Shown in pieces: positions 1 through 24,267 of a DNA stretch of 36,779 nucleotides. Within the stretch, counting starts at the first letter, position 1; each line of letters starts with the position of its first letter. Both the position numbers and the translations under genes were made by a program. Source of the stretch: a virus. The notes below the pieces were generated by a model. That model did no database searches and had not been told where the DNA came from. It saw only the letters and a list, made by a program, of their open reading frames with translations. The stretch is taken from IMG/VR virus record IMGVR_UViG_3300044615_000233, positions 1 through 36,779 of that record. One strand, written 5' to 3'.

Positions 1-168
1 AACTCCTTGATAGCGCGGCTATTTAATAAGCACCATTCGTCAGTTATCCACGCTCTGCGTAACATGCGTAACCAGATCGAAACAGATGCTAACTTCCGTG
101 AATATGTCGAGCGCATGGAAACGCTGCTAGATATTAACTTTACCGTGCAAGTGGAAGAGATAGAGTAG
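1..168 (+). CDS. DnaA domain-IV-like protein, C-terminal fragment (copy 1)
   Basis: This is an open frame from base 1 to the TAG at 166-168, encoding the last 55 residues of the protein seen complete at 32381-32950. It begins inside the helix-turn-helix and contains the motif HHSSVIHALRNM, which resembles the DnaA signature in which HSTV(I/L)HA contacts the DnaA box. All nine base differences from the second copy are synonymous, so the protein fragments are identical. It is cut by the window start and is not a pseudogene as far as can be seen. Confidence 0.85.
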   Translation, partial: NSLIARLFNKHHSSVIHALRNMRNQIETDANFREYVERMETLLDINFTVQVEEIE

Positions 169-207
169 TTATTTGGCACATTTTGAAACTAGCGAAAGGC
201 CCAAAAT

Positions 208-597
208 ATGGCACGACCAAGAATAGAATTAGACGAAGACTTGATATATCAGATGGCAAAAGAGGGATGCTCGGTAGATGATATTGCTACCGAGTTTGCC
301 TGCTCGGATCAAACCATCTACAACAAATACTACGAAGTCTGGAAAGCAGGGCAAGCAGCCGGACGGCGTGCGCTCCATCGTAGGCAGTTTGAAAAAGCAA
401 TGGACGGCGATTCTGGAATGCTGCGCTGGTTAGGTGCTAACAGGTTAGGGCAGTCTGACAAGGTGCACCAGACCAACGGCGTACAAGAGATAGAAGTAGT
501 AATCCGCAAACCCTTAAAGGCAGACAATGGCGAAATTGGAGATAGCAGACCCGCTACCAGCACAGATAGACTTCTGGAGCAATCCGGCGAGGCATAG
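208..597 (+). CDS. Terminase small subunit-like DNA-binding protein (copy 1)
   Basis: This 129-residue protein sits immediately before the large terminase, the usual place for the subunit that recognises packaging sites and loads the motor. The N-terminal half (about residues 8-45) reads like a helix-turn-helix, with AKEGCSVDDIATEFACSDQTIYNKYY typical of small terminase HTH domains; the middle is basic. The last 24 codons overlap the start of the large terminase in another frame (527-597), suggesting translational coupling. Compared with its copy at 32991 the first ~95 residues are strongly diverged, while the C-terminal ~37 are nearly identical. The role is assigned from position and the HTH; no exact family is claimed. 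Confidence 0.75.
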   Translation: MARPRIELDEDLIYQMAKEGCSVDDIATEFACSDQTIYNKYYEVWKAGQAAGRRALHRRQFEKAMDGDSGMLRWLGANRLGQSDKVHQTNGVQEIEVVIRKPLKADNGEIGDSRPATSTDRLLEQSGEA

Positions 598-1693
598 GGG
601 ATTCATTGGCGGTATCGGATCAGGTAAGACGCTTGCGGGCTGCGTAGAGGTTCTACGGCAGCCTGCCGGCACGTATGGCACTATCCTAGCACCAACGTAT
701 CCAATGCTCCGTGATGCGACGCAGCTAACCTTCTTTGACCTGTTCAGTCAGTATGTAGAAGAGCATAACAAGAGCGAAGGTGTGACAAAGCTCGTAAACG
801 GGACTACGATCTTCTGGAGATCTGCGGACAAGCCCGATTCCCTGCGCGGCCCTAACCTAAACTGGTTTTGGTTAGATGAAGCGGATTATATGGATGGTGC
901 GACGTGGGACGTCATGCTAGGCCGTATTCGCCGCGATCCTACCAGATGCTGGATAACCACATCGCCTAACGGAGATACCAACTGGGTATACGAGCGCATC
1001 TTCCGCAAGGCAACGGCAGGCAATCCGGACTACTACGTCGTAACAGCCAAGACGCGCGACAACATCCACCTGCCTAGCGAATACGTACGTAACCTAGAAG
1101 AGACGTATACGAGCGAGTTTGCGCGGCAGGAACTGGAAGGAGAATTCATTGGGCCAATGGGGCGCATCATGAGGAAGGAATGGCTGCAATACGCTTTGCT
1201 TCCAGAAGATGACATTACGTACGTAATCGGAGTAGATTTGGCTGTTGGCATGAAGTCCAATGCAGACGATCGCGCTATTGTGGTAGTAGGCAAGCGAGGC
1301 ACGACCTATTACGTCGCTGATGTGGTTTTCGGCAAGTGGTCATTCAACGAGACCAAAGACAAGATCAAGCAGACTGCCTATAACTGGAATGCAGTCAGGG
1401 TATGCGTTGAGAACGTAGCTTATCAAGAGGTAATGGTACAACAGCTCCGAGCCGAAACCATGCTGAACATTCAGGGCGTCAATCCACGGGGGCGCAATAA
1501 GCTCACGCGCTTTCTACCCATCGCAGGCAAGTATGAGCACGGGTACATTAAACATGTGAATAGCGTGCCTTTGGAATTTACCGAACAGCTCCTTATGTTC
1601 GATGGCAAAGATGGGCGGCTGGACGATATGGTCGATGCTCTCATCTACGCTGTAAACGGACACGAATCAAATACTTACGTTTACGAGATATAA
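527..1693 (+). CDS. terL: Terminase large subunit (copy 1)
   Basis: This 388-residue ATPase-nuclease pumps DNA into the prohead and cuts the concatemer. Walker A is GGIGSGKT at residues 28-35, and Walker B is WFWLDE at 113-118. The C-terminal RNase H-like nuclease has acidic positions at D237 (VIGVDLAVG), VENVAY in the middle, and DDMVDAL near 366-372. It is on the short side for a TerL but both domains are complete. The start lies inside the small terminase gene, and the TAA abuts the GTG start of the portal. It differs from the second copy at only four residues (15, 227, 228, 381) despite many base changes. Confidence 0.95.
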   Translation: MAKLEIADPLPAQIDFWSNPARHRGFIGGIGSGKTLAGCVEVLRQPAGTYGTILAPTYPMLRDATQLTFFDLFSQYVEEHNKSEGVTKLVNGTTIFWRSADKPDSLRGPNLNWFWLDEADYMDGATWDVMLGRIRRDPTRCWITTSPNGDTNWVYERIFRKATAGNPDYYVVTAKTRDNIHLPSEYVRNLEETYTSEFARQELEGEFIGPMGRIMRKEWLQYALLPEDDITYVIGVDLAVGMKSNADDRAIVVVGKRGTTYYVADVVFGKWSFNETKDKIKQTAYNWNAVRVCVENVAYQEVMVQQLRAETMLNIQGVNPRGRNKLTRFLPIAGKYEHGYIKHVNSVPLEFTEQLLMFDGKDGRLDDMVDALIYAVNGHESNTYVYEI

Positions 1694-3784
1694 GTGGCAT
1701 TAGCCGATTACTTCCAAAAGATCTTTGGTCGTAACAACCAAGCACTACCAAGCCCAAACGGCACGCAAGTCGGAGGGCGAATTGGCTATCCCTCAAAAGC
1801 TGGTTACCTTGCCAACGTCGAACATGGATTCAATCGCAACCCAGTTGTAGCGGCTTGCGTAGGTGTTTACGCATCTACGCTCAATGAGCCGCCTTTGGCA
1901 GCCATGTACGACGATGGCACAATAAACAGGAACCATCCCGTCAGTCTGTTATTCCGCAAGCCCAATCCTCGTATGGGTCAAGCTGAATTCTGGCAGATCG
2001 TCTGGACATACCTAGCAATTAGCGGCAATGCATACATCGTAAAGGTACGCTCGGCAATGGGTAACATCGTCGAGCTGTATCCTTACTCGGATGCTCACGT
2101 TGCGCCGCTGCTTAACGATTTGGGATGGGTATACGCCTTCCGCTACCAGTCTGGCAACATAACGCAGGACTGGCCCGCTGATGATGTTATCCATATCCAG
2201 AATCCAGCGTACCGCGATCCGGTCAATATGCACAAGGGTGTAAGCCCTATCAGCGTGGCATGGGACAAGATTAACACATACAACGAGCTGCAAGCTACGA
2301 TCTATTCGCTTGTAGCTTCTAATGCTATCCCTAGCGGTATCTTGTCTGCACCGGGCGATGTTCCTATTTCACAGGTCGAATCTTTGCGGGCGCAATTGCG
2401 TAAACGCAAGGATGCCAACGGCAAAGACCGCACAGATGCGATCGTGCTAGGCAATGGTATGAGCTACCAGCAGATGGGCTTGGATGCACAGAAGCTGCAA
2501 GCGATTGAGACAACGCAGGAACTGGAAACGGCGATCTGCGGCGCATTCCGCATCCATCCAGCCGTTGTATTGACAAGTGCGGGGCTTGCACGTAGCACAT
2601 ACAACAACCTTGCTAGTGCCTACCAAGAATATACCACTTTAACGCGCGTACCGTTCTGGAATGCGCTTGAAGAGCAACTGGAATCGGGACTCCGTAAGGA
2701 ATTCCCAGATGTTCAGCTTGCTTTTGATACGTCAGAGGTGCAAGCGCTACAACCAGACGCGGCAACGATAGAAGCGCAGACATTGCAGCAGTTCACGGCG
2801 AATATCATCACGCTTAACGAAGCACGCGCAACGCTTAAGTACGAAGATGTAGAGAACGGCGATGTATTCGCTTACGAGCAGCAGCCAGCAGGCGGCTTTG
2901 GTGCGTTTACTGCTCCAGAGCCAGAGGCAAAGCAAGCGGTAGAAACCAACGCAGACCCAATCGAAAGCGTAGAGGGCCGCAAGGTAAAGTGGCACGAGCC
3001 GGAGGCGGTTAAATACTGGCAGAAGCAGGAAGATGTTATCCTCAAAGCTGCGGAAGCTACGCAGGCCGATGTTGCGGAAGTAATGAAGCGCGTAGAGCGT
3101 GCAGTCATGAAGCAGGTAAAAGCGGATCATTTTGTTGGCGTCAACAAAATGGTAAAAGCTCCAGAGGATGCAATCAACATAGCCGATTTGGTCAGGCAGT
3201 TTATTGCAGCCAATGAAGCTACGCAAGAGGCATTGCGTACGCAGATTATCGAGATGACGCTTGAAAGCGTGGGCGGTGATCTTACGCAAGTGCAGAGCCT
3301 GACGGATCAAATCCGTGATGAGCAAATCCGCAAGTCTACCGAGAACATGAAAGAGTCTTTGAACACGGCTAAAAAGGACGTGGCAAGGGTTCTAGAAGCT
3401 AACGCAGGCAAGCCAGTAGCGGAAGTGCAAAAGTCTCTGCTAGAAAAGTTTACCGAGATGCAGACGTCACGGGCAAAGATGATCGCCGTGACAACGTGCA
3501 AAGCACAGGCAACGGTAGTGCAGCGCAAGACGGTCGAGCGCGTCAATGCACGGGAAACTGATCCAAAGCGCAAGGTCGTGCAAGTATGGCTATCACAGCG
3601 TGATTCTGACGTACGCAAGACGCACGAAGAGCTGGATGGTAAGTGGATTGACGAAGGCGAAACATTTGACCAGTACGTAGACGGTGCGGGCGAAGGCCCC
3701 GGACTAGGTGAGCCAAGCGAGGCGATCAACTGCCGCTGCACACTACGACCTGTTCGCAAATCAAGAATAACGAGCGACGTATAA
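1694..3784 (+). CDS. Portal protein fused to a MuF-type head morphogenesis domain (copy 1)
   Basis: This 696-residue protein starts with GTG directly after the terminase stop. Residues ~1-400 form an HK97-type portal core (GFNRNPVVAACVGVYAS near 38-54, then a conserved WTYLAISGNAYI segment), the dodecameric ring through which DNA enters. After an acidic linker and a helical charged segment (~430-580), the C-terminus has the MuF/SPP1 gp7-like signature: W-x-SQRDSDVRKTH, an ELDG element, and a final NCRC. Fusions of portal and MuF exist in other phages, but here they make one long protein. It ends in TAATG overlap with the protease. Two patches differ strongly from copy 2 (see findings). Confidence 0.93.
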   Translation: MALADYFQKIFGRNNQALPSPNGTQVGGRIGYPSKAGYLANVEHGFNRNPVVAACVGVYASTLNEPPLAAMYDDGTINRNHPVSLLFRKPNPRMGQAEFWQIVWTYLAISGNAYIVKVRSAMGNIVELYPYSDAHVAPLLNDLGWVYAFRYQSGNITQDWPADDVIHIQNPAYRDPVNMHKGVSPISVAWDKINTYNELQATIYSLVASNAIPSGILSAPGDVPISQVESLRAQLRKRKDANGKDRTDAIVLGNGMSYQQMGLDAQKLQAIETTQELETAICGAFRIHPAVVLTSAGLARSTYNNLASAYQEYTTLTRVPFWNALEEQLESGLRKEFPDVQLAFDTSEVQALQPDAATIEAQTLQQFTANIITLNEARATLKYEDVENGDVFAYEQQPAGGFGAFTAPEPEAKQAVETNADPIESVEGRKVKWHEPEAVKYWQKQEDVILKAAEATQADVAEVMKRVERAVMKQVKADHFVGVNKMVKAPEDAINIADLVRQFIAANEATQEALRTQIIEMTLESVGGDLTQVQSLTDQIRDEQIRKSTENMKESLNTAKKDVARVLEANAGKPVAEVQKSLLEKFTEMQTSRAKMIAVTTCKAQATVVQRKTVERVNARETDPKRKVVQVWLSQRDSDVRKTHEELDGKWIDEGETFDQYVDGAGEGPGLGEPSEAINCRCTLRPVRKSRITSDV

Positions 3785-4545
3785 TGAAGTACAAGAACAT
3801 ACCAGTAGAATTCAAGGCGGATGAGCAGGGCAGCGTTGAAGCGTTTGTGAGCGTTTTCGGCAATGTCGATTCATACGGCGATCGTGTTATTTATGGCGCA
3901 TTCAAGGAAAGCATAGAAGCAAAGCTGCCCAAGATGGTATGGCAGCACGATATGCAGCGACCGATTGGGAAGACGGTGCTAGCAGAAGAGATAGCAGCAG
4001 GTGATGCGCGTCTACCAGAGCGTCTACGCGATAACGGCGCGCTGTATGTGAAGGGCCTGTTTAACCTCAACACGACCGACGGCAAAGACGCATACGAGCA
4101 CATCAAGTTTGGCAGCGTGGATGAGTACAGCTTTGGTTATGAAGAGGTAGAGACAACGCCGCTGGCAGATGGTACAAAAGAACTTAACAAACTGAACATT
4201 ATTGAATGGTCACCGGTTACGGTAGGGGCTAATCCCATGACCATGACAAGTAACGTAAAAGCTATGACACTCGAAGAAAAGCTGGATGTAGCGGCTACGC
4301 TTATCAAGCAATCAGAAGAGCACGCACTCGCATACGCGGATATGCGTAGTAAAGCGGGCCGTGTGCTCAACTCTCGTATCCGAGGCATGATCCTTTCACT
4401 TGCCGATCAATTGAAAGATGTCTCAAAAAATCTGTATCAGCTTCATGCAGAGACAGACCCAATACCAAAGGCAGACGATAAGGAGTTAAAGCGCAAGCAA
4501 CTCCTATCGCTTATGCAAACAATCAACACAATGGAGATAATCTAA
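3784..4545 (+). CDS. Prohead maturation protease (HK97 family)
   Basis: This 253-residue serine protease is expected to process the capsid precursor during head maturation. The family pattern is clear: an early SVFGNVDSYGDRV segment, catalytic-type histidine H55 in WQHDMQRPIGK, and serine S116 in EYSFGYE, followed by IIEWSPVTVGANPMT. The C-terminal ~90 residues are helical and charged, a possible scaffold-like tail. The ATG overlaps the portal stop by one base, and the stop overlaps the capsid ATG in the same way (TAATG), giving tight coupling. Confidence 0.93.
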   Translation: MKYKNIPVEFKADEQGSVEAFVSVFGNVDSYGDRVIYGAFKESIEAKLPKMVWQHDMQRPIGKTVLAEEIAAGDARLPERLRDNGALYVKGLFNLNTTDGKDAYEHIKFGSVDEYSFGYEEVETTPLADGTKELNKLNIIEWSPVTVGANPMTMTSNVKAMTLEEKLDVAATLIKQSEEHALAYADMRSKAGRVLNSRIRGMILSLADQLKDVSKNLYQLHAETDPIPKADDKELKRKQLLSLMQTINTMEII

Positions 4546-6005
4546 TGACGTGGGAAGAAATCCTCGCCGCTTTGGATGCTGTTCTCGCCGGGACATTTGA
4601 AACACCGGAAGCAATGGCAGCCGAAGTAGCAACAATCCGCGAACAGATCGCGGCGCTTCTAGCAGAAGCATCTGAAGAAACAGCCGAAGTTGAAGAAGTA
4701 TCGGCAGCCGTAGAGGGTGCAGCAAAGGCACAAGCCAAGCTCGCTCGTATCATGACAATCATCCAACAAAAGAAGGCGCTTAACGATATGAAGACAAAGA
4801 ACGCTTCAGATCTTAACGCACTCAAGACAGCGGCCCCAGTACCTTCTGGATTCGTTGCAGAAGGCGCAAAGATCACAGGCCAGCACTACCGTGGCAAGGC
4901 ATTCAAGCAGTTCGGCAGCGAAGCAGGATCAGCGGCATACAAGGCAGGACGCCAGATTGCAGCTTACCTTGGCGATGCTAGCTCGGCACAATGGTGCAAG
5001 GATAACGGCGTACCAATGCAGAAGACAATGGCAACTACCAACAACTCGCTTGGTGGTTTGACTGTTGTTGACGAACTGGATCAAGCTATCCTGTACTACC
5101 GCGAAGAGCGCGGCGTAGCTCGCGGTATCATGGACGTAGTATCTATGAATAGCGAAACACGTACCGTTAACCGTAACGTAGGCGGCACGACTGTATACGC
5201 ACTTGGCGAAGGCCAGAGCTACACAGCTTCAGATGTTCAGTTCAGCGGCGTACAGCTTACAGCAAAGAAGTTCGGTGCTCTCACACAGAACACGATCGAG
5301 CTCGGCGAAGATTCATACGCTGCAATCGCAGAAGAGATTGCAAAGGATCACGGCTACGCACACGCTGTACAAGAAGACAAGGTAGCTTTCTTGGGCGATG
5401 GTACTTCAACGTACAACGGCCTTGTAGGTTTGACCGAATCATTCAAGAAGCTCGTTACTGATATCGGCGGTACATGGGCAACGGATGCTAACAAGGCATA
5501 CGCAGCGGGCGTACAAGTTGCAACGGGCGCAACGCTTGCATCTGTAACTTTATCTGATATCATCAAGACGCAAGCAAAGGTTGCTACATTCCCCGGAATG
5601 AATAACCGCTTCTACGTTTCTTCGCAAGTATGGTACGGCACGATTGTACCTCTGATTCAAGCCGTAGGTGGTAACACAGCAACGCAGATCGTAGACGGCG
5701 TAACACGTCAGTTTTTTAACGGTTCCGAAGTTGTCTTCACAGATGAGCTTTACACGCCACTGCTTACAGCCGAGAACAGCCAGTTCGTACTCTTCTATGG
5801 TGATGCTGCTCAAGCTGGTTTGTTCGGCGATCGTCGCGGTCTATCGATCACAAGCTCGCAAGAAGTTGGATTCCTAACAGACACGCAATACAACAAGTCC
5901 ACAGCTCGCTATGGCGTAAACTGGTGGAATATCGGTAACGCATCAGCAACAGCGGCAAGCCGTCAGCGCGGCGCACTTGCAGCTCTTGTAACAAAGAACT
6001 CATAA
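4545..6005 (+). CDS. Major capsid protein with N-terminal delta/scaffold-like domain (HK97 fold)
   Basis: This 486-residue protein forms the capsid shell. Residues ~1-95 are acidic, alanine-rich and predicted helical (MTWEEILAALDAVLAG and following), like the HK97 delta domain that acts as internal scaffold and is removed by the upstream protease. The rest fits the phage_capsid family: a TTNNSLGGLTVVDELDQAIL element where mature chains often begin the N-arm, then the E-loop and A-domain regions, ending with a STARYGVNWWNIGNA strand typical of the family C-terminus. The position right after the protease supports the call. The exact cleavage site cannot be read from the sequence. Confidence 0.92.
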   Translation: MTWEEILAALDAVLAGTFETPEAMAAEVATIREQIAALLAEASEETAEVEEVSAAVEGAAKAQAKLARIMTIIQQKKALNDMKTKNASDLNALKTAAPVPSGFVAEGAKITGQHYRGKAFKQFGSEAGSAAYKAGRQIAAYLGDASSAQWCKDNGVPMQKTMATTNNSLGGLTVVDELDQAILYYREERGVARGIMDVVSMNSETRTVNRNVGGTTVYALGEGQSYTASDVQFSGVQLTAKKFGALTQNTIELGEDSYAAIAEEIAKDHGYAHAVQEDKVAFLGDGTSTYNGLVGLTESFKKLVTDIGGTWATDANKAYAAGVQVATGATLASVTLSDIIKTQAKVATFPGMNNRFYVSSQVWYGTIVPLIQAVGGNTATQIVDGVTRQFFNGSEVVFTDELYTPLLTAENSQFVLFYGDAAQAGLFGDRRGLSITSSQEVGFLTDTQYNKSTARYGVNWWNIGNASATAASRQRGALAALVTKNS

Positions 6006-6014
6006 GGTGATCAA

Positions 6015-6458
6015 ATGAATAACTTGCAAAACGCAAAGATTGTAAACGTAACGCCGCCTGCCGCTATCAAGGATGCAGCTTCGTTCGCTACAACAACGAT
6101 CGACACGCTCGGTTTTAACAAGGTAGCTATCTACTTTGCACTCGGCGCAACTGATATCGCTATGACTGCTCTCAAGGTTCAAGAGTCTGACGATTCAGGC
6201 ATGAGCGGAGCCGCTGATATTACAGGTGCTGTATACGGCGCAACTGGATATGCTGCTCTTCCAACAGCAGACGATGACAACAAGGTATTTGCCTTCTTCA
6301 TCGATCTCAAGGGACGCAAGCGTTATCTGGATGTAGTCGCTACGGCTGGTGATGGCTCAACAGGTACATTCGGCGCTTGCACGGCGCATCTCTACAATCC
6401 GCTTACAACAGAAGACAATGCTACGCAACGTGGCCTTGCTGCTAATCTTATTGTCTAA
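6015..6458 (+). CDS. Probable head decoration or accessory structural protein, unrecognised
   Basis: A 147-residue protein immediately downstream of the major capsid gene, nine bases after its stop. It is rich in Ala, Thr, Gly and Asp, with alternating hydrophobic strands (VAIYFALGATD, FAFFIDLKGRKRYLDVVAT) and no charged helices, consistent with a beta-rich virion protein. The position suggests a capsid-decoration or head-fibre role and expression at a level similar to the capsid. I do not recognise the family, and the function is inferred from context only. Confidence 0.7.
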   Translation: MNNLQNAKIVNVTPPAAIKDAASFATTTIDTLGFNKVAIYFALGATDIAMTALKVQESDDSGMSGAADITGAVYGATGYAALPTADDDNKVFAFFIDLKGRKRYLDVVATAGDGSTGTFGACTAHLYNPLTTEDNATQRGLAANLIV

Positions 6459-6470
6459 AGTGACATGACT

Positions 6471-6490
6471 ACGGGGCCTTTGGGCCTCGT
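6471..6490 (+). terminator. GC-rich hairpin after the capsid/decoration pair
   Basis: An 8-bp stem (ACGGGGCC with GGCCTCGT, one G-T pair) closes a TTTG loop, 13 bases after the stop of the 147-residue gene. No T-run follows, so it may be a weak or partial terminator, or an mRNA-stabilising end that lets capsid transcripts outnumber downstream ones. Confidence 0.5.
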
Positions 6491-6511
6491 GGTGATCTCA
6501 CTTGAAAGCAC

Positions 6512-6856
6512 ATGATAACACTATCCAACGCAGGCGCAAGAGTTGACTTGCAGATTCGCAAGGGTGGGGCTTTTGCTCGCACACTTACCTACAAAGTCAA
6601 CGGCGCTGTTCAGAATATCACGGGCTATACGTTCGCGGCTCAAGTGCGTACAGTATCGGGCACGCTTTCCGCTACGTTTACATGCACGATTGTAAGCGCA
6701 GTAGCAGGCACGTTTAGCATTGTGCTTACGAGCGCAGAGACGGCAGCACTTGTAACCACGACCGAATATAAGTGGGATCTTGAAGTTACGATCAGCGGCG
6801 TTGTGACCGAGCTTTTGCGCGGTGATGTTACGGTAGTGGATGAGGTTACCTCTTGA
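6512..6856 (+). CDS. Ig-like/BppU-like structural protein
   Basis: This 114-residue beta-rich protein begins DLQIRKGGAFARTLTY, includes VQNITGYTFAAQVRT and closes with YKWDLEVTISGVVTELLRGDVTVVDEVT. That pattern (tough N-strand, dLtGyt, G-F-x-hydrophobic, Y-W-dL, G-D-v-V) is common in small phage and prophage proteins near fibres and baseplates and resembles the N-terminal domain of BppU-like proteins. The next gene starts with TTG inside its stop codon. The exact virion location is unknown. Confidence 0.65.
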   Translation: MITLSNAGARVDLQIRKGGAFARTLTYKVNGAVQNITGYTFAAQVRTVSGTLSATFTCTIVSAVAGTFSIVLTSAETAALVTTTEYKWDLEVTISGVVTELLRGDVTVVDEVTS

Positions 6857-7329
6857 GCATAAGCGTAGTCAATATAAAGCAGGACACGTTAGTTGTTGAT
6901 GTGAAACAATCGCAGCCAACGGTTAACGTGCAGAGCTATGACCTAACGCTTGACATTGCTAGCGGCGGAATCGTCCCTGCGGCGATTGATACAACGCTGG
7001 TAGCATCTACTAGCTTGTCCGCTTTGCGATGCATTACAACGGACGGGAGCGGCCTTGCAAAGTATGCTACGCCAGACTCGCTTGCGAATGCCGTGGTAAT
7101 CGGCATCAGCACGACGGCGGCGAGCACGGGGCAGAACATCACGATCAAAACGAGCGGGCAGATTACGGACGCTTCGTGGAGCTGGACAAAGGGCGCGATC
7201 TATCTAGGGGCTAACGGCTCGCTAACGCAGACGGCCCCGACAGGTGGTAGCATCGTAGTGCACGTAGCAAAAGCAATAACAGCGACAACACTAATCATCG
7301 ACATAGACACAATCATTCAAACGGTGTAA
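6853..7329 (+). CDS. Fibre/decoration-like protein with a beta domain
   Basis: A 158-residue protein starting with TTG in a TTGA overlap with the preceding stop. The first ~45 residues are repeats of short beta strands (SISVVNIKQDTLVVDVKQSQ). The rest, from TLVASTSLSALRCITTDGSG onward, is a small domain that sets a token value to an attribute-like pattern (VIGISTTAASTGQNITIKTS, then GAIYLGANGSLTQT) found in many phage fibre and head-fibre proteins. A diverged version of the same domain occurs in the next gene, so the two are probable paralogues. The role is inferred from context. Confidence 0.6.
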   Translation: MSISVVNIKQDTLVVDVKQSQPTVNVQSYDLTLDIASGGIVPAAIDTTLVASTSLSALRCITTDGSGLAKYATPDSLANAVVIGISTTAASTGQNITIKTSGQITDASWSWTKGAIYLGANGSLTQTAPTGGSIVVHVAKAITATTLIIDIDTIIQTV

Positions 7330-7330
7330 C

Positions 7331-7840
7331 ATGGCAGAAAAGTATATCAAAAATAACGCGGGGCAATTGGCAGAAGTCGAAGCTACCGTATCATCATCAG
7401 GCGCCACGGAAGCGGGCAAGATTGTTGCTCTTGATGGAGGCGGCAAGCTGGACAATTCAGTATTGCCATCAGGGATTGGTGCAACTGTAAAGGTTGCGGC
7501 AACAAGCGAGAACTTGAGTGCAAGCGATCTCGTGAACCTATGGAATGACAGCGGTACAGTTAAGGTACGCAAGGCAGACGCAAGCAATGGACGCCGTGCT
7601 CACGGCTTTGTTATTGCATCTACAACAAGCCCTGCAAACGCCACGGTATATCTTGATGGTACAATCACAGGCCTTACTGGATTGACACCCGGCGCTCCTT
7701 ACTATTTGAGCGGTTCAAGCGCAGGTGATATTGTCTCAACTGCACCTAGCACATCGGGCTATATTTCGCAGGAAGTCGGAATTGCTTTGTCAGCAACCGA
7801 GATCAACTTTGAAGAACAGCAACCTATTACGCTGGCCTAA
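7331..7840 (+). CDS. Fibre-like structural protein
   Basis: A 169-residue protein. Residues ~5-55 contain the linker-like KIVALDGGGKLDNSVLPSGI, typical of phage fibre shafts. The C-terminal part (GFVIASTTSPANATVYLDG, then LTPGAPYYLSGSSAGDI and a QEVGIALSATEINFE end) is the same domain type as in the upstream gene. It starts one base after the upstream stop. It is probably a virion surface component; whether it belongs on the head or tail cannot be told. Confidence 0.65.
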   Translation: MAEKYIKNNAGQLAEVEATVSSSGATEAGKIVALDGGGKLDNSVLPSGIGATVKVAATSENLSASDLVNLWNDSGTVKVRKADASNGRRAHGFVIASTTSPANATVYLDGTITGLTGLTPGAPYYLSGSSAGDIVSTAPSTSGYISQEVGIALSATEINFEEQQPITLA

Positions 7841-7843
7841 TCT

Positions 7844-8080
7844 ATGGCAGTTAAGAAACCATTAGTCCTAGCCTCTGGCCAGATTCAGGAACTGCAAAGC
7901 GGTGATGAGATCAACATAGACGCTAGCGATATAACCACGGGAACGGTAGCTACGGCACGGCTTGCGAGTGGCACGGCTGATAACACTACGTTCTTACGTG
8001 GTGACCAGACATGGGCCGTGCCTGCGGGTGGTGGAAGTACAGATACGCCGCTGCATCCTTTTCTTTTGATGGGGGCATAA
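7844..8080 (+). CDS. Short fibre-repeat protein
   Basis: A 78-residue protein that consists almost wholly of a fibre repeat motif: SDITTGTVATARLASGTADN followed by TTFLRGDQTWAVPAGGG, normally met as one unit inside large tail fibres. Here it stands alone, with its stop overlapping the next ATG (TAATG). It may trimerise and join neighbouring small proteins into a composite fibre. No catalytic features are visible. Confidence 0.65.
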   Translation: MAVKKPLVLASGQIQELQSGDEINIDASDITTGTVATARLASGTADNTTFLRGDQTWAVPAGGGSTDTPLHPFLLMGA

Positions 8081-8418
8081 TGCCGAATACCTATAAAGTT
8101 CTTGGTCAGTTAGCCCCTGCTAATACAACAGCCGCAACTTTGTACACAGTACCTAGTTCAACATCAACTGTTGTATCAGCTATTACTGTGGCTAACATTA
8201 CTACGGGTGGCACTACTGCGCAATATAGAATTGCAATAAGGCCAGCAGGCGCAACACTTGCAAACCAGCATTACCTTGCCTATGACGTCAATGTATCTGC
8301 AAACGATACTGTTACGCTTGTGCTAGGTATTACATTGGCAGCAACTGATGTAATAACGGTTCGTAGTTCGGTCGCTGACACGATTGCTTTTTCTGCATTT
8401 GGCTGTGAAATCACGTGA
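8080..8418 (+). CDS. Small beta-rich structural protein
   Basis: A 112-residue protein. The ATG at 8080 was chosen because it overlaps the preceding TAA in TAATG; the reading frame itself is open further upstream. The sequence, starting MPNTYKVLGQLAPANTTAAT and with VVSAITVANITTGGTTAQYR, is alternating beta with Ala/Thr, like small phage proteins found beside fibre or head genes. There are no cysteine-rich or enzymatic motifs. The function is unknown; a structural role is inferred from neighbours. Confidence 0.65.
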   Translation: MPNTYKVLGQLAPANTTAATLYTVPSSTSTVVSAITVANITTGGTTAQYRIAIRPAGATLANQHYLAYDVNVSANDTVTLVLGITLAATDVITVRSSVADTIAFSAFGCEIT

Positions 8419-9284
8419 GCGTAAGATCAGCACGATATAACCTGCTTTCATTGCGTAATCCAAAAGGATTAACGGTCATACCCGAAGAGCTCGATGCGTG
8501 GGTTTTTCTTGATAATGCGCAGATCAGATCATCACAGCAACAACGCGCTATAATTCAGCTAGTCCGTGAATTAAAACATGCGCAGCTTTGGTCAAAAATG
8601 AAAGCTATATACCCGTTCGTGGGTGGGACGGCGACGACGCATAAGTTCAATCTTAAAGATCCTCGTGATTTGGCCGCAGCATTTAGATTACAGTTTTTCG
8701 GTGGGTGGACACATAGCAATAATGGTGTGCTGCCTAATGGTACAACTGCATTTGCAGACACAAATCTCACGGCCAGTACGTCTTTAATAAACAATAGCAC
8801 ACATTTATCATATTATTCACGTACAGCAGCTGCCTCTGGGGTGCCTGGTATAAGTACAGGAGTAGATATAGGAGCGCTCAATTCTTTTACAGGAACTATA
8901 CCTGTGATACAATTAGTTATTAGAGGTGATTTATCTGGATCACAAGTAAGTATATCTAATCACTACAGTGCTGCGAATCAAATAACAACAAATCAAACAT
9001 CTGGACAAGGTTTGTTTGTTGGCACACGTACAAGTTCAAATGTGCATAGACTATACAAAAACACAACAAATATAGCTTCTGATTTGAATGCAAGTAATAC
9101 AAACGTTTCGAGCGTAGCTCGCAGAATTTATATAGCTGCAAGAAACGATCAAGGGTCTGCTTTTCAGTACAGCAACAAAGAATCCGGATTTATTAGCATA
9201 GGCGACGGTCTGACTGGCACAGATGTAACAGCCCTCTACAACATCGTCCAACGATTCCAAACTTCACTCGGAAGACAGGTATGA
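8415..9284 (+). CDS. LamG/concanavalin-like fibre or glycan-binding protein
   Basis: A 289-residue protein starting with GTG in a GTGA overlap. The N-terminus (~1-60) is helical; from ~68 the pattern YPFVGGTATTHKFNLKDPRD, GGWTHSNNGVLPNGTTAFAD and STHLSYYSRT matches a domain common in phage tail-associated proteins with a lectin-like jelly roll. A surface-binding role is likely. The DNA from about 8700 to 9200 is visibly more A+T rich than the flanks, and codon choice shifts to A/T-ending codons, which suggests recent acquisition of the binding part. Confidence 0.65.
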   Translation: MSVRSARYNLLSLRNPKGLTVIPEELDAWVFLDNAQIRSSQQQRAIIQLVRELKHAQLWSKMKAIYPFVGGTATTHKFNLKDPRDLAAAFRLQFFGGWTHSNNGVLPNGTTAFADTNLTASTSLINNSTHLSYYSRTAAASGVPGISTGVDIGALNSFTGTIPVIQLVIRGDLSGSQVSISNHYSAANQITTNQTSGQGLFVGTRTSSNVHRLYKNTTNIASDLNASNTNVSSVARRIYIAARNDQGSAFQYSNKESGFISIGDGLTGTDVTALYNIVQRFQTSLGRQV

Positions 9285-9541
9285 ACCTAGCACAGATACC
9301 TATTAATGAGCTTGTCAACTACTGCGCCAAGCTAACAGCAGAGCAGGCGGACTCATTGCGTGGTCAGGTGTTCTTGCAGGATTCGTATTTCAATCCTATT
9401 CAGGACATCGAGGACAACTGGATTATTTCAGCGCAGGAAGTGGCGTATTGCGCGAATGCAGAGTTCCTATGGATTAAAGACCTGCCGATGATACCATTCG
9501 TACCAAAGCCCGCACCGCCGTTGTTTGGAGTTGAATCATGA
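9281..9541 (+). CDS. Hypothetical protein after the fibre gene
   Basis: An 86-residue protein coupled by ATGA overlap to the LamG-like gene. It is acidic, with helices and a proline-rich end (PFVPKPAPPLFGVES). No family was recognised with certainty; a position directly after a receptor-binding-like gene is often held by chaperones or small accessory proteins, but nothing in the sequence proves that. Confidence 0.6.
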   Translation: MNLAQIPINELVNYCAKLTAEQADSLRGQVFLQDSYFNPIQDIEDNWIISAQEVAYCANAEFLWIKDLPMIPFVPKPAPPLFGVES

Positions 9542-9822
9542 CCGTAGAGACTATGTTCGGCATCATCATGAGCACCATGCTAGCCATCATCGGATTCTGG
9601 GTTAAGACGTTAGTCAATGACTTCCGCGAGACACGCGATAACGTGATCGCCATGCACGAAGTCATGAGTAATACGACCAACGAGATCATTGCTCTCAAGA
9701 AATCAGATGAGCTAATCACACAGCGCATTGTGGAGATTATCGAGCGGCTGGTACGATTAGAAGAACGAACAGGCAACATAGACCCAAAACCACGTAAGGC
9801 ATACAAGCGTGCTGTCAGATGA
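9538..9822 (+). CDS. Single-span membrane protein with coiled coil (holin-accessory candidate)
   Basis: A 94-residue protein with a hydrophobic N-terminal segment (~4-28, TMFGIIMSTMLAIIGFWVKT) followed by a long amphipathic helix rich in Glu, Ile and Leu (IVEIIERLVRLEERTG) and a basic tail. This topology resembles XhlA-type and other small lysis-associated proteins, although in XhlA the membrane span is C-terminal. It overlaps the next gene, which is also membrane-associated, by 14 nt. The lysis role is an inference from topology and pairing. Confidence 0.6.
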   Translation: MTVETMFGIIMSTMLAIIGFWVKTLVNDFRETRDNVIAMHEVMSNTTNEIIALKKSDELITQRIVEIIERLVRLEERTGNIDPKPRKAYKRAVR

Positions 9823-10165
9823 TCCAATCATATCGAAGGTTGTACTGCGCTACAAGTTCTGGCCCAAGCGTCAGGATTACGTTCCGCCTATCGAGCGCGT
9901 GCCGCTTGCAAACGAATTGCAGCCGCATGTTCCACGTGAAACAAAGCTAGGATTTACGGGATACATGAAACTGATCCCGCATGTTTTTACAATTATCAAA
10001 GGTGCTTTAATGAGCAACTGGAAAACAACGGTCACAGGCGTAGTAGGTGCATTGGCTGTACTGGTCAATTCAATTACTGGCGTTGTGATTCCACAGGACG
10101 CAATTATTGCCGTCGTACTTTTCGCACTCGGATTCTTTGCAAAGGATGGTAAGAGCAATGATTGA
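9809..10165 (+). CDS. Holin-like membrane protein with possible nested short form
   Basis: A 118-residue frame with a GTG start inside the previous gene. Residues ~1-60 are soluble with many prolines. Residues 68-118 (MSNWKTTVTGVVGALAVLVN to FALGFFAKDGK) have two hydrophobic stretches and resemble small phage holin-like proteins of about 50 residues that begin at exactly such an MSNWKTT. An internal ATG at 10010 (residue 68) has AAAGG seven bases upstream, so a 51-residue product is plausible. Either form could be the functional holin. Confidence 0.6.
   Translation: MLSDDPIISKVVLRYKFWPKRQDYVPPIERVPLANELQPHVPRETKLGFTGYMKLIPHVFTIIKGALMSNWKTTVTGVVGALAVLVNSITGVVIPQDAIIAVVLFALGFFAKDGKSND
10010..10165 (+). 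CDS. Nested short holin-like product (alternative start)
   Basis: This in-frame internal start gives a 51-residue, two-span protein of typical small-holin length. The AAAGG ribosome-binding site seven bases before ATG is better than anything visible at the GTG of the long form. If both are made, the soluble N-terminal extension of the long form might act as a modifier; that part is speculative. Confidence 0.45.
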   Translation: MSNWKTTVTGVVGALAVLVNSITGVVIPQDAIIAVVLFALGFFAKDGKSND

Positions 10166-10358
10166 TTTTAGCAAGATCAAAAACAAGGCAGTGGTAACCA
10201 TCAACCACGGTGCAAAAGACATTGACGTAGAAGTAGTAAACGATACTCCGAGCGCGTGCGTAGTCAAGCTGCCAGACGGCTCGATTATGACCGTAGGCAA
10301 GATGCACGTTAAGGCAATCAAGCCAGAGACTCCCGTACCTTCTGCTATCAAGGAATAA
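10158..10358 (+). CDS. Small hypothetical beta-rich protein
   Basis: A 66-residue protein; the ATG at 10158 overlaps the end of the holin-like gene by eight bases and is preferred to an upstream in-frame start because of the purine-rich GGATGGTAAGAG before it. It reads as short strands (AVVTINHGAKDIDVEVVN, SACVVKLPDGSIMTVGKMHV), like small phage structural or accessory proteins. No family is recognised. Confidence 0.55.
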   Translation: MIDFSKIKNKAVVTINHGAKDIDVEVVNDTPSACVVKLPDGSIMTVGKMHVKAIKPETPVPSAIKE

Positions 10359-10361
10359 ACA

Positions 10362-10937
10362 ATGCCTCTCGTATCGCGCGCAGTAATCAAGCAGGACTGG
10401 TTAAACATCGCAGCAATCGACACAAGCCGCGACGGTCTTATAGATCGTCTAATTGGCTATGTTGACAATGAGATTAAAGACATCTGCAATCAGCCCATCA
10501 TTCAGGAAAGCGTAACAGCTTACTACGAAGGCACGCGCGATACGTTGCTTCTAACAGGTTATACCGTGCCCGTAACGTTGAGCGCGCTTAAGTTCAGAGA
10601 TAGTTACGGTGATACCTTCAAGTCCGTTACGGGCACTACTAATCTTGTGGACATACGCGGCGTCAAATACCTATACCTTGAAGATGGTTTCATCAACAAG
10701 CAGTACGAAGCGGTCATGTCAATCGGCTATACTAGCATCCCTAGCGTTATAGAGATATGCGCCGCGGAGATGGTAACCGAGCTGTACATGGAGACACCAT
10801 TCGCACCGCAGGCAAACCGCTTTGGCGTAACAGCTATCACGGAAAGCGAAGCTGGTATGTCCATCTCCAAGACATTGCAGGCAATGCGTACGCGCGTTAA
10901 GCCAAGACTTGCACCATATACGCGCGTGACGATATGA
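10362..10937 (+). CDS. Head-tail connector (gp6-like adaptor)
   Basis: This 191-residue protein fits the HK97 gp6/DNA-packaging adaptor family that stacks under the portal ring. It starts with a helical bundle containing DRLIGYVDNEIKDICNQPII, where a short helix leads into a YY-xx-T strand, then a beta hairpin region with VTLSALKFRDSYGD and a helical C-terminus (VIEICAAEMVTELY). The position, first of a set of three morphogenesis genes before the tail tube, agrees. The stop overlaps the next ATG. Confidence 0.75.
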   Translation: MPLVSRAVIKQDWLNIAAIDTSRDGLIDRLIGYVDNEIKDICNQPIIQESVTAYYEGTRDTLLLTGYTVPVTLSALKFRDSYGDTFKSVTGTTNLVDIRGVKYLYLEDGFINKQYEAVMSIGYTSIPSVIEICAAEMVTELYMETPFAPQANRFGVTAITESEAGMSISKTLQAMRTRVKPRLAPYTRVTI

Positions 10938-11437
10938 GCGATCTCTCACAAAGATTGGCACGGCTGGAGCGTGGGATATTGGCAGCGGTAAAAGATGTAG
11001 CGCAGAGCATCCCTTACGAGCTGCAAATCTTTACAGAGGATTATCTCAATCCTAACGAAGCAGGGCAGAAAACGGCAAAAGATGGCCAGCGTTATTATCC
11101 ACGACCGAACACAACGTCTAAACTGCGTACACTTTACGGTAACATTGCACGGTCTCTTGCACCGGGTGAAACAGGTAATTTTAGCAATGTGGAATTTCGT
11201 AATGGCAAGTTTGAAATAGAGTACGGTTACGATCCGCGCACACCTGTGAAGTCTGGAAAGATCAATCAGACGCTTATGTACGCTAGGTACAACGAACTAG
11301 GCACATCACGAGCAAAGGCAAGGCCGTTCCTAAAGCCGGGCTTTGCTGCCTATATGCGTGATGCTTCTGGATACAAAGCCCTTATCAAAGAGCTTGAAAC
11401 TACGATTGTAGATGAGTTTATGCAGGAGTTCGGATAA
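10934..11437 (+). CDS. HK97 gp10-like neck/tail completion protein
   Basis: A 167-residue protein with the typical ending of the family, YNELGTSRAKARPFLKPGF (about residues 114-132), which corresponds to the E-x-G-T ... A-x-P-F-L-x-P signature, followed by an amphipathic C-terminal helix. Members join the connector to the tail during maturation. It is coupled by overlap with the genes on both sides. Confidence 0.8.
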   Translation: MSDLSQRLARLERGILAAVKDVAQSIPYELQIFTEDYLNPNEAGQKTAKDGQRYYPRPNTTSKLRTLYGNIARSLAPGETGNFSNVEFRNGKFEIEYGYDPRTPVKSGKINQTLMYARYNELGTSRAKARPFLKPGFAAYMRDASGYKALIKELETTIVDEFMQEFG

Positions 11438-11901
11438 TGGCTAGCAATTCGATGCAGTACATTGTAGATACAATCATTGACGCTCTGAACAGCGACGGCA
11501 ATCTTACGCCGCGCCGTATATGGAGACCGGATGCGTACGAGTCAAATACTACTATATGCTATCCATACATTAGCCAGATGCAGTACGACACGGACTCCGA
11601 GACGGGCTTGAGCTTGGGGCTTGGTCGTGCATTGGTCGAGATCATGTGCAACGCCATGATAGAAGCAGACCCAAGCGAGTTAGGCATAGCTAACGAGCGG
11701 GCGGGCGATATTGCCAGTCGTATCAAGTACGCTTTGGAGCAATACGATCTGGACGCACTAGGCAGCAACAACGACGGCAAATTTTATACAGCTATCACGT
11801 CAATGCACGTTGACGGTAACGTAGGCAACTTTAACACAGGCAGCAACAAAATACAGATGGGCGTTGCTGCTACTGTAACATTTGTGATACAACCAGTCTA
11901 G
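11437..11901 (+). CDS. Probable tail terminator/completion protein
   Basis: A 154-residue protein that begins one base inside the preceding stop. It has an N-terminal helix (MQYIVDTIIDALNS), a central strand pair including LGRALVEIMCNAMI, a helix (RAGDIASRIKYALEQY) and a final strand (ATVTFVIQPV), an alpha-beta pattern matching small tail terminator proteins. The order adaptor, gp10-like, terminator, tube is the usual one. Assignment is mostly by position. Confidence 0.65.
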   Translation: MASNSMQYIVDTIIDALNSDGNLTPRRIWRPDAYESNTTICYPYISQMQYDTDSETGLSLGLGRALVEIMCNAMIEADPSELGIANERAGDIASRIKYALEQYDLDALGSNNDGKFYTAITSMHVDGNVGNFNTGSNKIQMGVAATVTFVIQPV

Positions 11902-11906
11902 GGCAC

Positions 11907-12656
11907 ATGGACACACAGGACACACAACTAGATACCTTCCCCGTTAGCTTCTGCGTTATCGCATCGCATGATGATATGCACAAGAGCATGCAGGGAATGC
12001 TTCGCTCACTACCAAAGAATGCGGAAGTCTGCATCCTGCTAAATAAGCAGGGGCGCGAACATCACGTTAGCGAAGTAACAGAGCATACCGACGAGTACCA
12101 TACAATCCGCTCGCGCGAGTGGACGTACGAAAAGGGAAAATTCAGCTTTGCACAAGCTCGCAATCTATGCGGTCAGATGGCAACGAAGGAATGGATCTTC
12201 TGGATTGACTGCGACGAGTACCTATGCGAGCAGCAGCATGAAGGCATAGCAGAAGCAACGCTACGACACGGCGGCGGCGTAGGTGGTTTTATGGCGGGGC
12301 AAGCGTCGCTGTCATGCTATAAAAAGCTGATCGGCGAAGCAAATGAAAACGAATACTTTAACATCGGGCAATTGCGGATGTACCGTAACACTCTAGAATT
12401 TTACTGGGAAGGTTACGCACACGAGCAGATTGCACACACTATCCGCGGAGCTGGTTACAGCATCGTAGATACAACTATCACGATCGCACACAATGGTTAC
12501 AGCGGCGATCCTGAAGTGCTCAAGAAGAAGCTCATACGCAATACCACTCTGATCGGCAGATGGTTAGCAGAGAACAACGAAGAGCACGGACTGCATACAT
12601 TCTATCGCGATACATACGTTCGCGATTTAACAGCACTAATTAAAATGGAGAAATGA
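11907..12656 (+). CDS. Family-2-like glycosyltransferase
   Basis: This 249-residue protein opens with a nucleotide-sugar binding fold (SFCVIASHDDMHKSMQGMLR, then AEVCILLNK), has KGKFSFAQARNLCGQMA as in many GT2 members, and a DxD metal motif at D101-C-D103 in WIFWIDCDEYL. The end (YRDTYVRDLTALI) is helical. It lacks a membrane span, so the acceptor should be cytoplasmic. It sits between the tail terminator and tail tube genes, so the acceptor may be a virion protein or a nascent host glycan; neither is shown. The start six bases after the upstream stop indicates it belongs to the same transcript. Confidence 0.8.
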   Translation: MDTQDTQLDTFPVSFCVIASHDDMHKSMQGMLRSLPKNAEVCILLNKQGREHHVSEVTEHTDEYHTIRSREWTYEKGKFSFAQARNLCGQMATKEWIFWIDCDEYLCEQQHEGIAEATLRHGGGVGGFMAGQASLSCYKKLIGEANENEYFNIGQLRMYRNTLEFYWEGYAHEQIAHTIRGAGYSIVDTTITIAHNGYSGDPEVLKKKLIRNTTLIGRWLAENNEEHGLHTFYRDTYVRDLTALIKMEK

Positions 12657-12657
12657 A

Positions 12658-13257
12658 ATGGCACTATCTGGATATGTAATCAATGGTGGTCGTAAGGCAG
12701 AGTTCTTTACGATTACTGTTGGTACAACACAGACAACCTTTGCATCGACTACTCCTGTCTATACCTGCGAAGCGCAGATTACGTCAGACGGAGCGAATGA
12801 TGACAACGGTATTCGCACATGGACGTTAGACCAAGTACAAGCAGACAAGCTTTATTGGGACTTCGTTCAGACATACGCACCTGCTTCTACCTCATCAGCT
12901 ACAACAGAAGAGCTGACGATGGAGAACGGTGAAATTATTAGTGGAGCATCAGCAGGGAGCACAGAACTTGCTATGCTTGTGAAGGGCGCAAAGATTAAAG
13001 GCGGTTTGAGTGATGGCATGCGTCTTGCATGGGCTGGACTTGTTAAGGTCTCAAAGTCTTCTGGCTCGGTAAACTTTGCAGGTACAGCTTATGTCAAGCC
13101 AACGCTAACGGCTATCGCGTCAAGCATTACTACAAATCTTGTAGTACCTTCTGCTGTACTTAACGATTACGTTGGACTTACATCTACAACCATTACAACG
13201 GTAACAATCGGCGCATCTACCTATCCTTATGGTAAGATGCTCGTTGACCTTGCGTAA
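12658..13257 (+). CDS. Major tail tube protein
   Basis: A 199-residue beta-rich protein that starts one base after the glycosyltransferase stop. It carries long alternating strands (AEFFTITVGTTQTTFASTTP, IRTWTLDQVQADKLYWDFVQT), a run typical of tube proteins before tail chaperones, and a C-terminal Thr-rich strand region. It is followed by a strong hairpin terminator, consistent with a highly expressed virion protein. It was assigned from position and composition; the tube fold cannot be verified by eye. Confidence 0.75.
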   Translation: MALSGYVINGGRKAEFFTITVGTTQTTFASTTPVYTCEAQITSDGANDDNGIRTWTLDQVQADKLYWDFVQTYAPASTSSATTEELTMENGEIISGASAGSTELAMLVKGAKIKGGLSDGMRLAWAGLVKVSKSSGSVNFAGTAYVKPTLTAIASSITTNLVVPSAVLNDYVGLTSTTITTVTIGASTYPYGKMLVDLA

Positions 13258-13261
13258 TTCA

Positions 13262-13275
13262 GCGTAGCGATACGC
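13262..13275 (+). other. Small hairpin with GNRA tetraloop
   Basis: GCGTA and TACGC pair around a GCGA tetraloop five bases after the tail tube stop and just before the main terminator hairpin. GNRA loops give stable RNA ends and could protect the tube mRNA from 3' exonucleases. Confidence 0.4.
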
Positions 13276-13280
13276 GTACT

Positions 13281-13332
13281 GGGGGCTGGTACTGGCGATC
13301 TGTGTCCCGTCAGTTACTGGCCCCCTATTTTT
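13281..13332 (+). terminator. Rho-independent terminator after the tail tube gene
   Basis: GGGGGC at 13281 pairs with GCCCCC ending at 13325, extended inward by GU pairs and a CTG/CAG step over one bulged T, and is followed by TATTTTT. It lies 24 bases after the tube stop and 12 before the next ATG, so it probably reduces transcription into the chaperone and tape measure genes. Confidence 0.7.
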
Positions 13333-13343
13333 AAGGACACACA

Positions 13344-13955
13344 ATGAAACTTAACGGCATAGAAATAAAGCATCTACCGGTCACGCTCCGCAATCAACAG
13401 ATTTGCAAAGACTGGTATCAGCGCATTAGCAATCACATACAGCAAAGAAGCGTCGAGTATATGCTCCGCACGATTGCACGATTGCGGCACGGTAGCGAAG
13501 AGTTAGCAGAGCTAATCGACGAAGTGGGCATGGTCAATAACGTAACGCTTCAGGCGCGAATTGTGGGGCTAATAGAGGCACATAAAGCGCAGCATGACTA
13601 CGAGAATGAACAGCGCAAAGCAGCAAAGCAAGCCGAGCTGGAATACGAGCCAATGACGGCAGAAGCAGCAAAGGCCATAGCAGAGCAGGAACTGAAAGAC
13701 TCGCTAGTGGTGCTGCTAAAAGATAGCCCGGAGATAGGGCGCCAGATGTACTTTAATTTGGACGCTTTCCCGCATACGATGGAGTCTATGCTGCTAGGCA
13801 TTGACTGCATACGGGGCACGGTCGATTATAGCAAGCTATTAGAGCAAGAATCGGATGCTATCAAGAGCGCAAACGATAGCGAATTCTGGCAGGACGTGAC
13901 GGCCTCGGAGGTGGCTCAATACGTCGATCGATTTCGCAGCTCGCACAAGCAATGA
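13344..13955 (+). CDS. Tail assembly chaperone-like protein A
   Basis: A 203-residue protein after the tail tube gene and before the tape measure, where G/GT-type chaperones of siphophages lie. It is mostly helical and charged, with no membrane or signal segment. The C-terminal third, LDAFPHTMESMLLGIDCIRG to WQDVTASEVAQYV, is clearly related to the protein at 14309. Its ribosome-binding leader AAGGACACACAATGAA is the same 16 bases as before that second gene. The role is from position; the alternative is a family of unknown tail proteins. Confidence 0.65.
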   Translation: MKLNGIEIKHLPVTLRNQQICKDWYQRISNHIQQRSVEYMLRTIARLRHGSEELAELIDEVGMVNNVTLQARIVGLIEAHKAQHDYENEQRKAAKQAELEYEPMTAEAAKAIAEQELKDSLVVLLKDSPEIGRQMYFNLDAFPHTMESMLLGIDCIRGTVDYSKLLEQESDAIKSANDSEFWQDVTASEVAQYVDRFRSSHKQ

Positions 13956-13980
13956 GTTATACGAAGTTTGGCGGGTCACT

Positions 13981-14319
13981 ATGTGGAAAATTCACGAAGT
14001 GAAGCTGTTAGACAAGTACGGATTCTCGCAAGAGCATCCTAACTTTACAATGGACATAGACGATAACTACACCGACACGTTACCAGCTACCGCATCATCT
14101 ATGGCAATGGCTCTGCAATACGCTCCCGAATGGGGATTGAGTTACTACGAAGTAATGGATATGGCGTATGCGGAGTTTTACAAGCTGGTAAACATCCAAA
14201 AAGCAATTAACTATAAGAAGCCGTGGTGGACTGGAGATGTAGGCGAGCAAGCATACATGTACGAGAAAGCCAGCGGCAAGCGTCTCAACAAACCTCGAAG
14301 GACACACAATGAATTTTGA
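13981..14319 (+). CDS. Small protein between the chaperone-like pair, possible frameshift partner
   Basis: A 112-residue protein with acidic and aromatic content (SYYEVMDMAYAEFYKL, then YKKPWWTGDVGEQAY). An ATG at 13981 would make it an independent gene 25 bases after the preceding stop. However, the frame is open upstream from 13900, overlapping the end of chaperone A by 56 nt in the +1 frame, so a G/GT-like fused product is possible. Its stop overlaps the next gene by 11 nt. No family is recognised. Confidence 0.6.
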   Translation: MWKIHEVKLLDKYGFSQEHPNFTMDIDDNYTDTLPATASSMAMALQYAPEWGLSYYEVMDMAYAEFYKLVNIQKAINYKKPWWTGDVGEQAYMYEKASGKRLNKPRRTHNEF

Positions 14320-14746
14320 ACCAATCCCGCTATCAGTAGCGAACGCGAAGCTATTGCAAGAATGGCAAGGTAAGATTAGCGCATACATTGAAGAGCACGG
14401 CAAAGACCGCATCATGTCGGGCGTGTCGAAGATGTACGCAGAAGATGCAGAGTTTGCCGCACTTGTGGATAAAGCAATCAGCAATGGCGGTACGTTTACC
14501 GAGCTTGACTTGACCGAATGGGCAAAGAGCAATATGATAAAGGCAGCCGCGCTGCATCGCCAAATGCAGGAGCTACCGCACACAATGAGCGCACTTATGC
14601 TTGGCATTGATTGCATCAAAGCGACCGCAGACAAGAGCAAGCTATCCGAACAGGACGCAGCACAGTTTGACGATGAAGGATTCTGGCATCACGTAACAAT
14701 TACCGATGTGCAGAAGTATTGCAATACCCTACTTGAAATGAAGTAA
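14309..14746 (+). CDS. Tail assembly chaperone-like protein B, paralogue of the 13344 protein
   Basis: A 145-residue protein. The N-terminal half parallels the first copy (ANAKLLQEWQGKISAYIEEH against RNQQICKDWYQRISNHIQQR), and the C-terminal half matches well: LPHTMSALMLGIDCIKATAD and FWHHVTITDVQKY. The central ~60 residues of the first copy are missing. It carries the identical RBS leader. The ATG lies within the end of the 13981 gene, and its stop overlaps the tape measure start by one base. A tandem duplication followed by shortening explains it. Confidence 0.65.
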   Translation: MNFEPIPLSVANAKLLQEWQGKISAYIEEHGKDRIMSGVSKMYAEDAEFAALVDKAISNGGTFTELDLTEWAKSNMIKAAALHRQMQELPHTMSALMLGIDCIKATADKSKLSEQDAAQFDDEGFWHHVTITDVQKYCNTLLEMK

Positions 14747-18648: not shown

Positions 18649-18649
18649 C

Positions 18650-19144
18650 ATGCCAGCAAAGAGTAACTGGACAATGACGCTGTACGGAAGCAATACGGAC
18701 ACGGCAACAATACCGGCAACCGTGGATGCTACTTATGGTGGTGCTCTAATGTTGATTTCATCGCTTACAACAGCGACAAATAAGAGCGTTTACATACTTG
18801 CTCCGCAATTTGACTATGTGTTTAACACAGGCACGCTTGAAGATGTGAGTGGAACGGTCATAGGTTTCACGACGCGCCGTATACAGTTCCAAATTGAAAC
18901 CTATCCGTTTAGTTACGATGCAACGTCGGTAACTTTAGAACAGGATATGGAGGACATGATTACGCTGCTGAACATCATCCGAGATTTCAAGTTCTTGTAC
19001 CTTCGCGTGGATGGTGGCTCGCGGGCGTATCCAGCCGCTACGTATGTCTATCCTGTGACGTTGACGTCTAACAACACAGCAATTAACAAGCAGTTTGGCA
19101 ATCGTACTTTAACGCTCACGTTTGAGCATAGGAAGCGCAGCTAA
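18650..19144 (+). CDS. Minor tail protein after the tape measure
   Basis: A 164-residue protein that begins one base after the tape measure stop, the position of distal tail/tail-tip components. It is beta-rich (WTMTLYGSNTDTATIPATVD, RRIQFQIETYPFSYDATS) with a short helix (MEDMITLLNIIRDFKFLYL) and a final strand (TLTLTFEHRKRS), consistent with a Dit-like or tail completion fold but not proven. It overlaps the next ATG by one base. Confidence 0.65.
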   Translation: MPAKSNWTMTLYGSNTDTATIPATVDATYGGALMLISSLTTATNKSVYILAPQFDYVFNTGTLEDVSGTVIGFTTRRIQFQIETYPFSYDATSVTLEQDMEDMITLLNIIRDFKFLYLRVDGGSRAYPAATYVYPVTLTSNNTAINKQFGNRTLTLTFEHRKRS

Positions 19145-22255: not shown

Positions 22256-22392
22256 TTGACGTTGAAGAACTGATTGAACAGCTCAAAGTAATTGCATACG
22301 ATGACATCCCACCGGTACGACGTGCGCAGCTATTGCATGTTATCGTCTATCTGGAACAATGGGCGAAAGATCACAATGTAAGGGCTAACTAA
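22252..22392 (+). CDS. 46-residue acidic helical microprotein
   Basis: A small gene with ATG in ATGA overlap with the preceding stop and TAATG overlap with the next gene, so both boundaries match local style. The product (MIDVEELIEQLKVIAYDD to VYLEQWAKDHNVRAN) reads as two amphipathic helices. The coding pattern and coupling make a real gene likely; the function is unknown. It lies between tail-tip and lysis-type genes. Confidence 0.6.
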   Translation: MIDVEELIEQLKVIAYDDIPPVRRAQLLHVIVYLEQWAKDHNVRAN

Positions 22393-24131: not shown

Positions 24132-24161
24132 AGAATAGCCCGATATTTTTACCTATCCGAG

Positions 24162-24190: not shown

Positions 24191-24200
24191 CATTTGCCTA

Positions 24201-24228: not shown

Positions 24229-24229
24229 T

Positions 24230-24250: not shown

Positions 24251-24267
24251 TTAACAAGGGCACGGCA

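Follow-up and report, generated by a model that had tools for sequence, protein, structure and literature searches.

The window analyzed here, a stretch of 36,779 nucleotides that constitutes one IMG/VR virus record (IMGVR_UViG_3300044615_000233; class "linear"), most probably comprises one turn of a circular phage genome of ~32.8 kb followed by 4 kb of a second strain's allele, joined to it by the assembler (probability of approximately 0.95). The two copies in the overlap are almost certainly ordinary strain variants and not parts of a duplicated or tandem phage genome. The two-copy arrangement is a known kind of assembly artifact rather than a real feature, and the strain variation underneath it is real and biologically ordinary.

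Self-comparison of the window revealed a single repeat, in which positions 1 to 3993 align end to end with positions 32783 to 36779 at 87.2% identity (521 mismatches and 6 gap columns in the 3,998 columns of a global alignment), a match well beyond chance. The end-to-end extent is no independent evidence, because every contig exceeding one turn of a circle overlaps itself end to end. This alignment had been described in a sequence-only reading, together with nine synonymous changes in the first 168 bases and a 60-base block of terL with ten changes; we counted the same nine changes, all of them synonymous, and found blocks with at least 10 changes per 60 bases (e.g., 1195-1249 and 1381-1441). 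The same reading had put few changes elsewhere, a statement at odds with the mismatch total and with up to 43 differences per 100 bases in terS, and it thereby understated the divergence between the copies (hereafter alleles A and B; Table 1).

Divergence between A and B peaks in the 5' part of terS (24 to 43 differences per 100 bases at positions 201-500) and in the portal gene, both midway (11 to 40 at 2301-2900) and at the 3' end (19 to 26 at 3601-3800), and the rest of the module mostly shows 3 to 14 differences per 100 bases. The terL divergence is mostly synonymous (93 synonymous versus 4 nonsynonymous codons; dS, 0.49; dN, 0.007), with 99.0% amino acid identity between the alleles; the corresponding values are 90.2% for the portal protein and merely 71.5% for terS. 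The reading frames are open in both copies, and both copies are under purifying selection; A and B are therefore both functional alleles, and neither is an error or a duplicate in decay.

TABLE 1 Features of the window and equivalent intervals in related contigs
Feature	Coordinates	Strand	Basis
Allele A: dnaA-like 3' end, terS, terL, portal, start of prohead protease	1..3993	+	87.2% identity to 32783-36779; equals contig 3300044608_000943 once placed after 32724-32782
Identical run opening the overlap (= 32783-32850)	1..68	+	Run-length comparison of the copies
Putative terS, allele A, HTH-like N terminus	208..597	+	HTH_7 below its curated cutoff; directly before terL
Large terminase (terL), allele A	527..1693	+	Terminase_6N/6C
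Portal fused to Mu-F-like head morphogenesis domain, allele A	1694..3784	+	PF04860, PF04233
Prohead protease (Peptidase_S78)	3784..4545	+	Family match; shortened second copy at 36570-36779
Single-copy remainder of the ~32,782-bp genome: capsid, tail, tape measure, lysis, and replication/recombination genes	3994..32782	+	Protein family matches; 32782-to-1 closure in six relatives
ORF with DnaA C-terminal HTH domain; 3' end repeated at 1-168	32381..32950	+	PF08299, 1.6e-9
Allele B: same dnaA-like 3' end-to-protease module, met after one turn of the circle	32783..36779	+	Equals contig 3300044608_001482 once 3994-4021 is appended
Putative terS, allele B	32991..33380	+	ORF and comparison with allele A
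Large terminase (terL), allele B	33310..34476	+	ORF and comparison with allele A
Portal/Mu-F fusion, allele B	34477..36570	+	ORF and comparison with allele A
99-base identical run closing the overlap (= 3895-3993)	36681..36779	+	Same 99-base run ends contig 3300045999_003053 (G005)
Equivalents of window 169-556	G003 23889-24315; G005 31597-33359; G009 21702-23430; G002 20968-22832		

The two alleles were found separately in another metagenome. A search of IMG/VR with terL as the query returned 50 loci, including two contigs of metagenome 3300044608 (L003 and L011), each of which holds one allele. Contig 3300044608_000943 (4,080 bp) is identical, with zero mismatches, to window 32724-32782 joined to 1-4021, and contig 3300044608_001482 (4,084 bp) matches window 32724-36779 joined to 3994-4021, likewise with zero mismatches. 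In this metagenome, each allele was thus directly observed alone between identical flanks (i.e., window 32724-32782 and 3994-4021), which places A and B at the same locus of a circular ~32.78-kb genome. Exactly 127 bases are common to the two contigs at each end, as expected if both are arms of the same bubble in a k=127 de Bruijn graph. The flanks also recur in other contigs. Contig 3300044636_000057 starts exactly at window base 3895, immediately past the last A/B difference, and matches window 3895-9125 at 100% identity; in two further loci (L065 and L068), B-type 3' ends (100% identity) run on into the ordinary downstream flank. A 40-mer of the portal 3' end in its A-type form occurred in 13 contigs and in its B-type form in 8, with none in common, so that no retrieved contig on these lists carries both alleles.

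The end of the window also bears the mark of the assembly graph. Both the window and a contig of the same phage group from another metagenome (IMGVR_UViG_3300045999_003053, 34,417 bp; G005) stop exactly 99 bases past the last mismatch, and 99 is a common k-mer size. Other details fit less well: relative to the k=127 edges in 3300044608, the first base of the window lies 59 bases inward and its last base falls 28 bases short. Its end matches k=99; the 68-base run at its start does not fit this value or any other standard k, and a single k for both ends was therefore rejected.

Closure of the circle was directly observed in related contigs. Homologs of the two sides of the 32782|1 junction are directly joined in six relatives (G001, G003, G004, G005, G006, and G007), and the terL-portal block is present once in the near-complete relatives G001 to G004 (32.0 to 33.6 kb). 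Short, near-perfect overlaps close two of these, G002 at ~21.5 kb of the map (genome of ~33,505 bases) and G004 at ~14 kb (~32,258 bases). Like the window, G005 wraps past one genome length, overrunning its 33,136-base genome by 1,281 bases at 92.97% identity (1-1281 versus 33137-34417; 90 mismatches in 1,281 bases); it differs from the window in its sample, in its breakpoint within terL, and in its shorter overlap. The repeat thus has no fixed position on the map: relatives cross the junction and have their own ends elsewhere, and the imperfect overlaps lie at different places in different contigs (terL in G005, ~21.5 kb in G002, and ~14 kb in G004), which makes the repeat a property of the assemblies and not a fixed genome feature. 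These results bear out two proposals of the sequence-only reading, namely, a circular or permuted genome of ~32.78 kb, upheld by the closure in six relatives, and a move of the assembly onto a co-occurring strain, in line with the separate A and B contigs of 3300044608, their identical flanks and 127-base common ends, and the finding of no other contig with both alleles.

The wrap-around most probably arose as follows. The circular map of ~32,782 bp could stem from a circularly permuted genome, from replication via concatemers, or from a replicative form that is circular. At least two strains in the sampled community most probably carry different terS-terL-portal alleles (A and B; 87% identical) between common flanks, and these alleles would form a bubble on the circle in the de Bruijn graph. 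The assembler would enter on branch A, pass once round the common 28.8 kb, and exit via branch B, stopping one k-mer after B rejoins already-used sequence. We infer this exact path, and likewise that the two strains share the 28.8-kb remainder, as opposed to its being a consensus that mixes them.

The window is assigned, from predicted protein families, to a tailed phage (Caudoviricetes with an HK97-fold head), because a large terminase, a portal protein, a prohead protease, an HK97-type major capsid protein, and a tape measure protein were all found. Other families in the window include a CHAP-domain enzyme, a DnaD-like loader, a DnaA-C domain protein, and Gp157/Gam-like, SSB-like, and VRR-NUC or Holliday-junction-resolvase-like proteins. 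A glycosyltransferase-like gene lies inside the head-tail block (window 11907-12656; weak match, E value of 1e-4). The phage genome collection contained no near-identity DNA match, only remote TerL relatives (~28% identity), and no relatives of the capsid protein; consequently, no isolate was usable as a circular reference.

In block-wise comparisons within the phage group, the two alleles matched different relatives: allele A at 2301-3050 was 99.7 to 100% identical to L010, L012, and L026, and allele B from ~3201 onward was 99.3 to 100% identical to L012, L015, L065, and L068. Types of the portal middle were seen with types of the portal end in each of the four possible pairings (AA, BB, AB, and BA), a pattern that indicates recombination in the phage group. 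The interval from the dnaA-like ORF to terL (window 169-556) is a variable spot, with clearly different terS genes in relatives. In some relatives, this interval holds extra genes recognized by eye from their motifs, i.e., DNA methyltransferase-like genes (DPPY...DPFMGSGSTG; PPCS) and a gene for a ParB-like protein. Several relatives carry an in-frame insertion of ~374 bases in the portal/Mu-F fusion gene at window 2934-2948 (e.g., G006 15408-15782). A possible recombination set is encoded at window 25706-26973 and 29463-30112, comprising Gp157/Gam-like, weakly Rad52-like, SSB-like, and VRR-NUC/resolvase-like proteins; this set may favor mosaicism of terS and the portal gene.

Could both alleles nevertheless be present in one molecule? 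In a tandem array or heterodimer, two related phage genomes would lie head to tail, e.g., as tandem prophages or as a concatemer formed by recombination on coinfection, and the window would span one genome and the start of the next. Phage concatemers exist, the four portal combinations attest to recombination, and short reads would not distinguish two monomers from a dimer whose 28.8-kb remainders are the same; the short-read graph of a circle A-S-B-S, with both S segments alike, would look no different. However, no integrase was detected among the window proteins scanned, a search of bacterial genomes returned no relative or prophage, none of the 13 A-type and 8 B-type contigs combines the alleles, and relatives close at one genome length. 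A dimer of units that differ by 13% along 4 kb but collapse along the other 28.8 kb would moreover be contrived. We regard such an array as very unlikely; the sequence-only reading had also ranked it lower, and it finds no support here. There is similarly little likelihood that part of the phage DNA in the sample consists of heterodimeric concatemers made by recombination, or of heterozygous headful DNA, which the contig would mirror.

Real direct terminal repeats of ~4 kb whose copies have drifted apart would match the shape of the window, with its 4-kb repeat at either end. Replication, however, renews both terminal repeats from a single template, and a divergence of 13% between copies is therefore unexpected. 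Fixed long repeats are also contradicted by the placement of each allele alone between the same flanks and by circle closure in relatives, which read through the junction with no second copy there and have their breaks elsewhere; this explanation is extremely improbable. Hardly more credence can be given to packaged terminal-redundancy heterozygotes, as in phage T4, in which a headful virion would have A and B at opposite ends. The circular map and the Terminase_6 large subunit are both consistent with headful packaging and circular permutation, and mixed strains and recombination are present, but short reads cannot join one end of a virion genome to the other, and the contig therefore provides no evidence of such molecules; a redundancy of 12% would need to coincide with k-mer boundaries of the graph, which the 99-base stop matches. 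The placement of the alleles, the closure of the circle, and the k-mer boundaries thus led us to reject all three alternatives (tandem genomes, drifted terminal repeats, and heterozygous virions).

Assembly of one genome turn plus a second strain's allele resembles cases already described. The authors of CheckV considered IMG/VR contigs with the same genome repeated to be probable assembly artifacts and found that direct terminal repeat (DTR) lengths peak at k-mer sizes, among them 55, 77, and 99 (PMC8116208). As in those contigs, the window exceeds one genome, part of it is read twice, and the overlap is tied to k-mer lengths; unlike them, with their same-sequence repeats or two to seven genome copies (PMC8116208), its second pass covers 12% of a turn and follows the other strain's allele (87% identity). 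Because of this diverged second pass, the window was missed by exact-repeat DTR tests and classed as linear. Divergent strains are known to produce loops and bulges in assembly graphs that cannot be phased beyond k (PMC11443906), and the window shares with such bubbles its divergent alleles, identical flanks, and long unphasable common stretch. It differs from ordinary strain bubbles (PMC11443906) in that the bubble lies on a circular genome, and the chimera consequently appears as an imperfect terminal repeat.

The two-copy arrangement has little biological importance in itself, and its use is as a caution. Wrapped contigs with diverged ends are classed as linear, are overlong, evade exact-repeat completeness tests, and can make terminase and portal genes look duplicated when they are not. 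Beneath the artifact, the true variation in the terS N terminus and in segments of the portal gene points to active recombination in this phage group.
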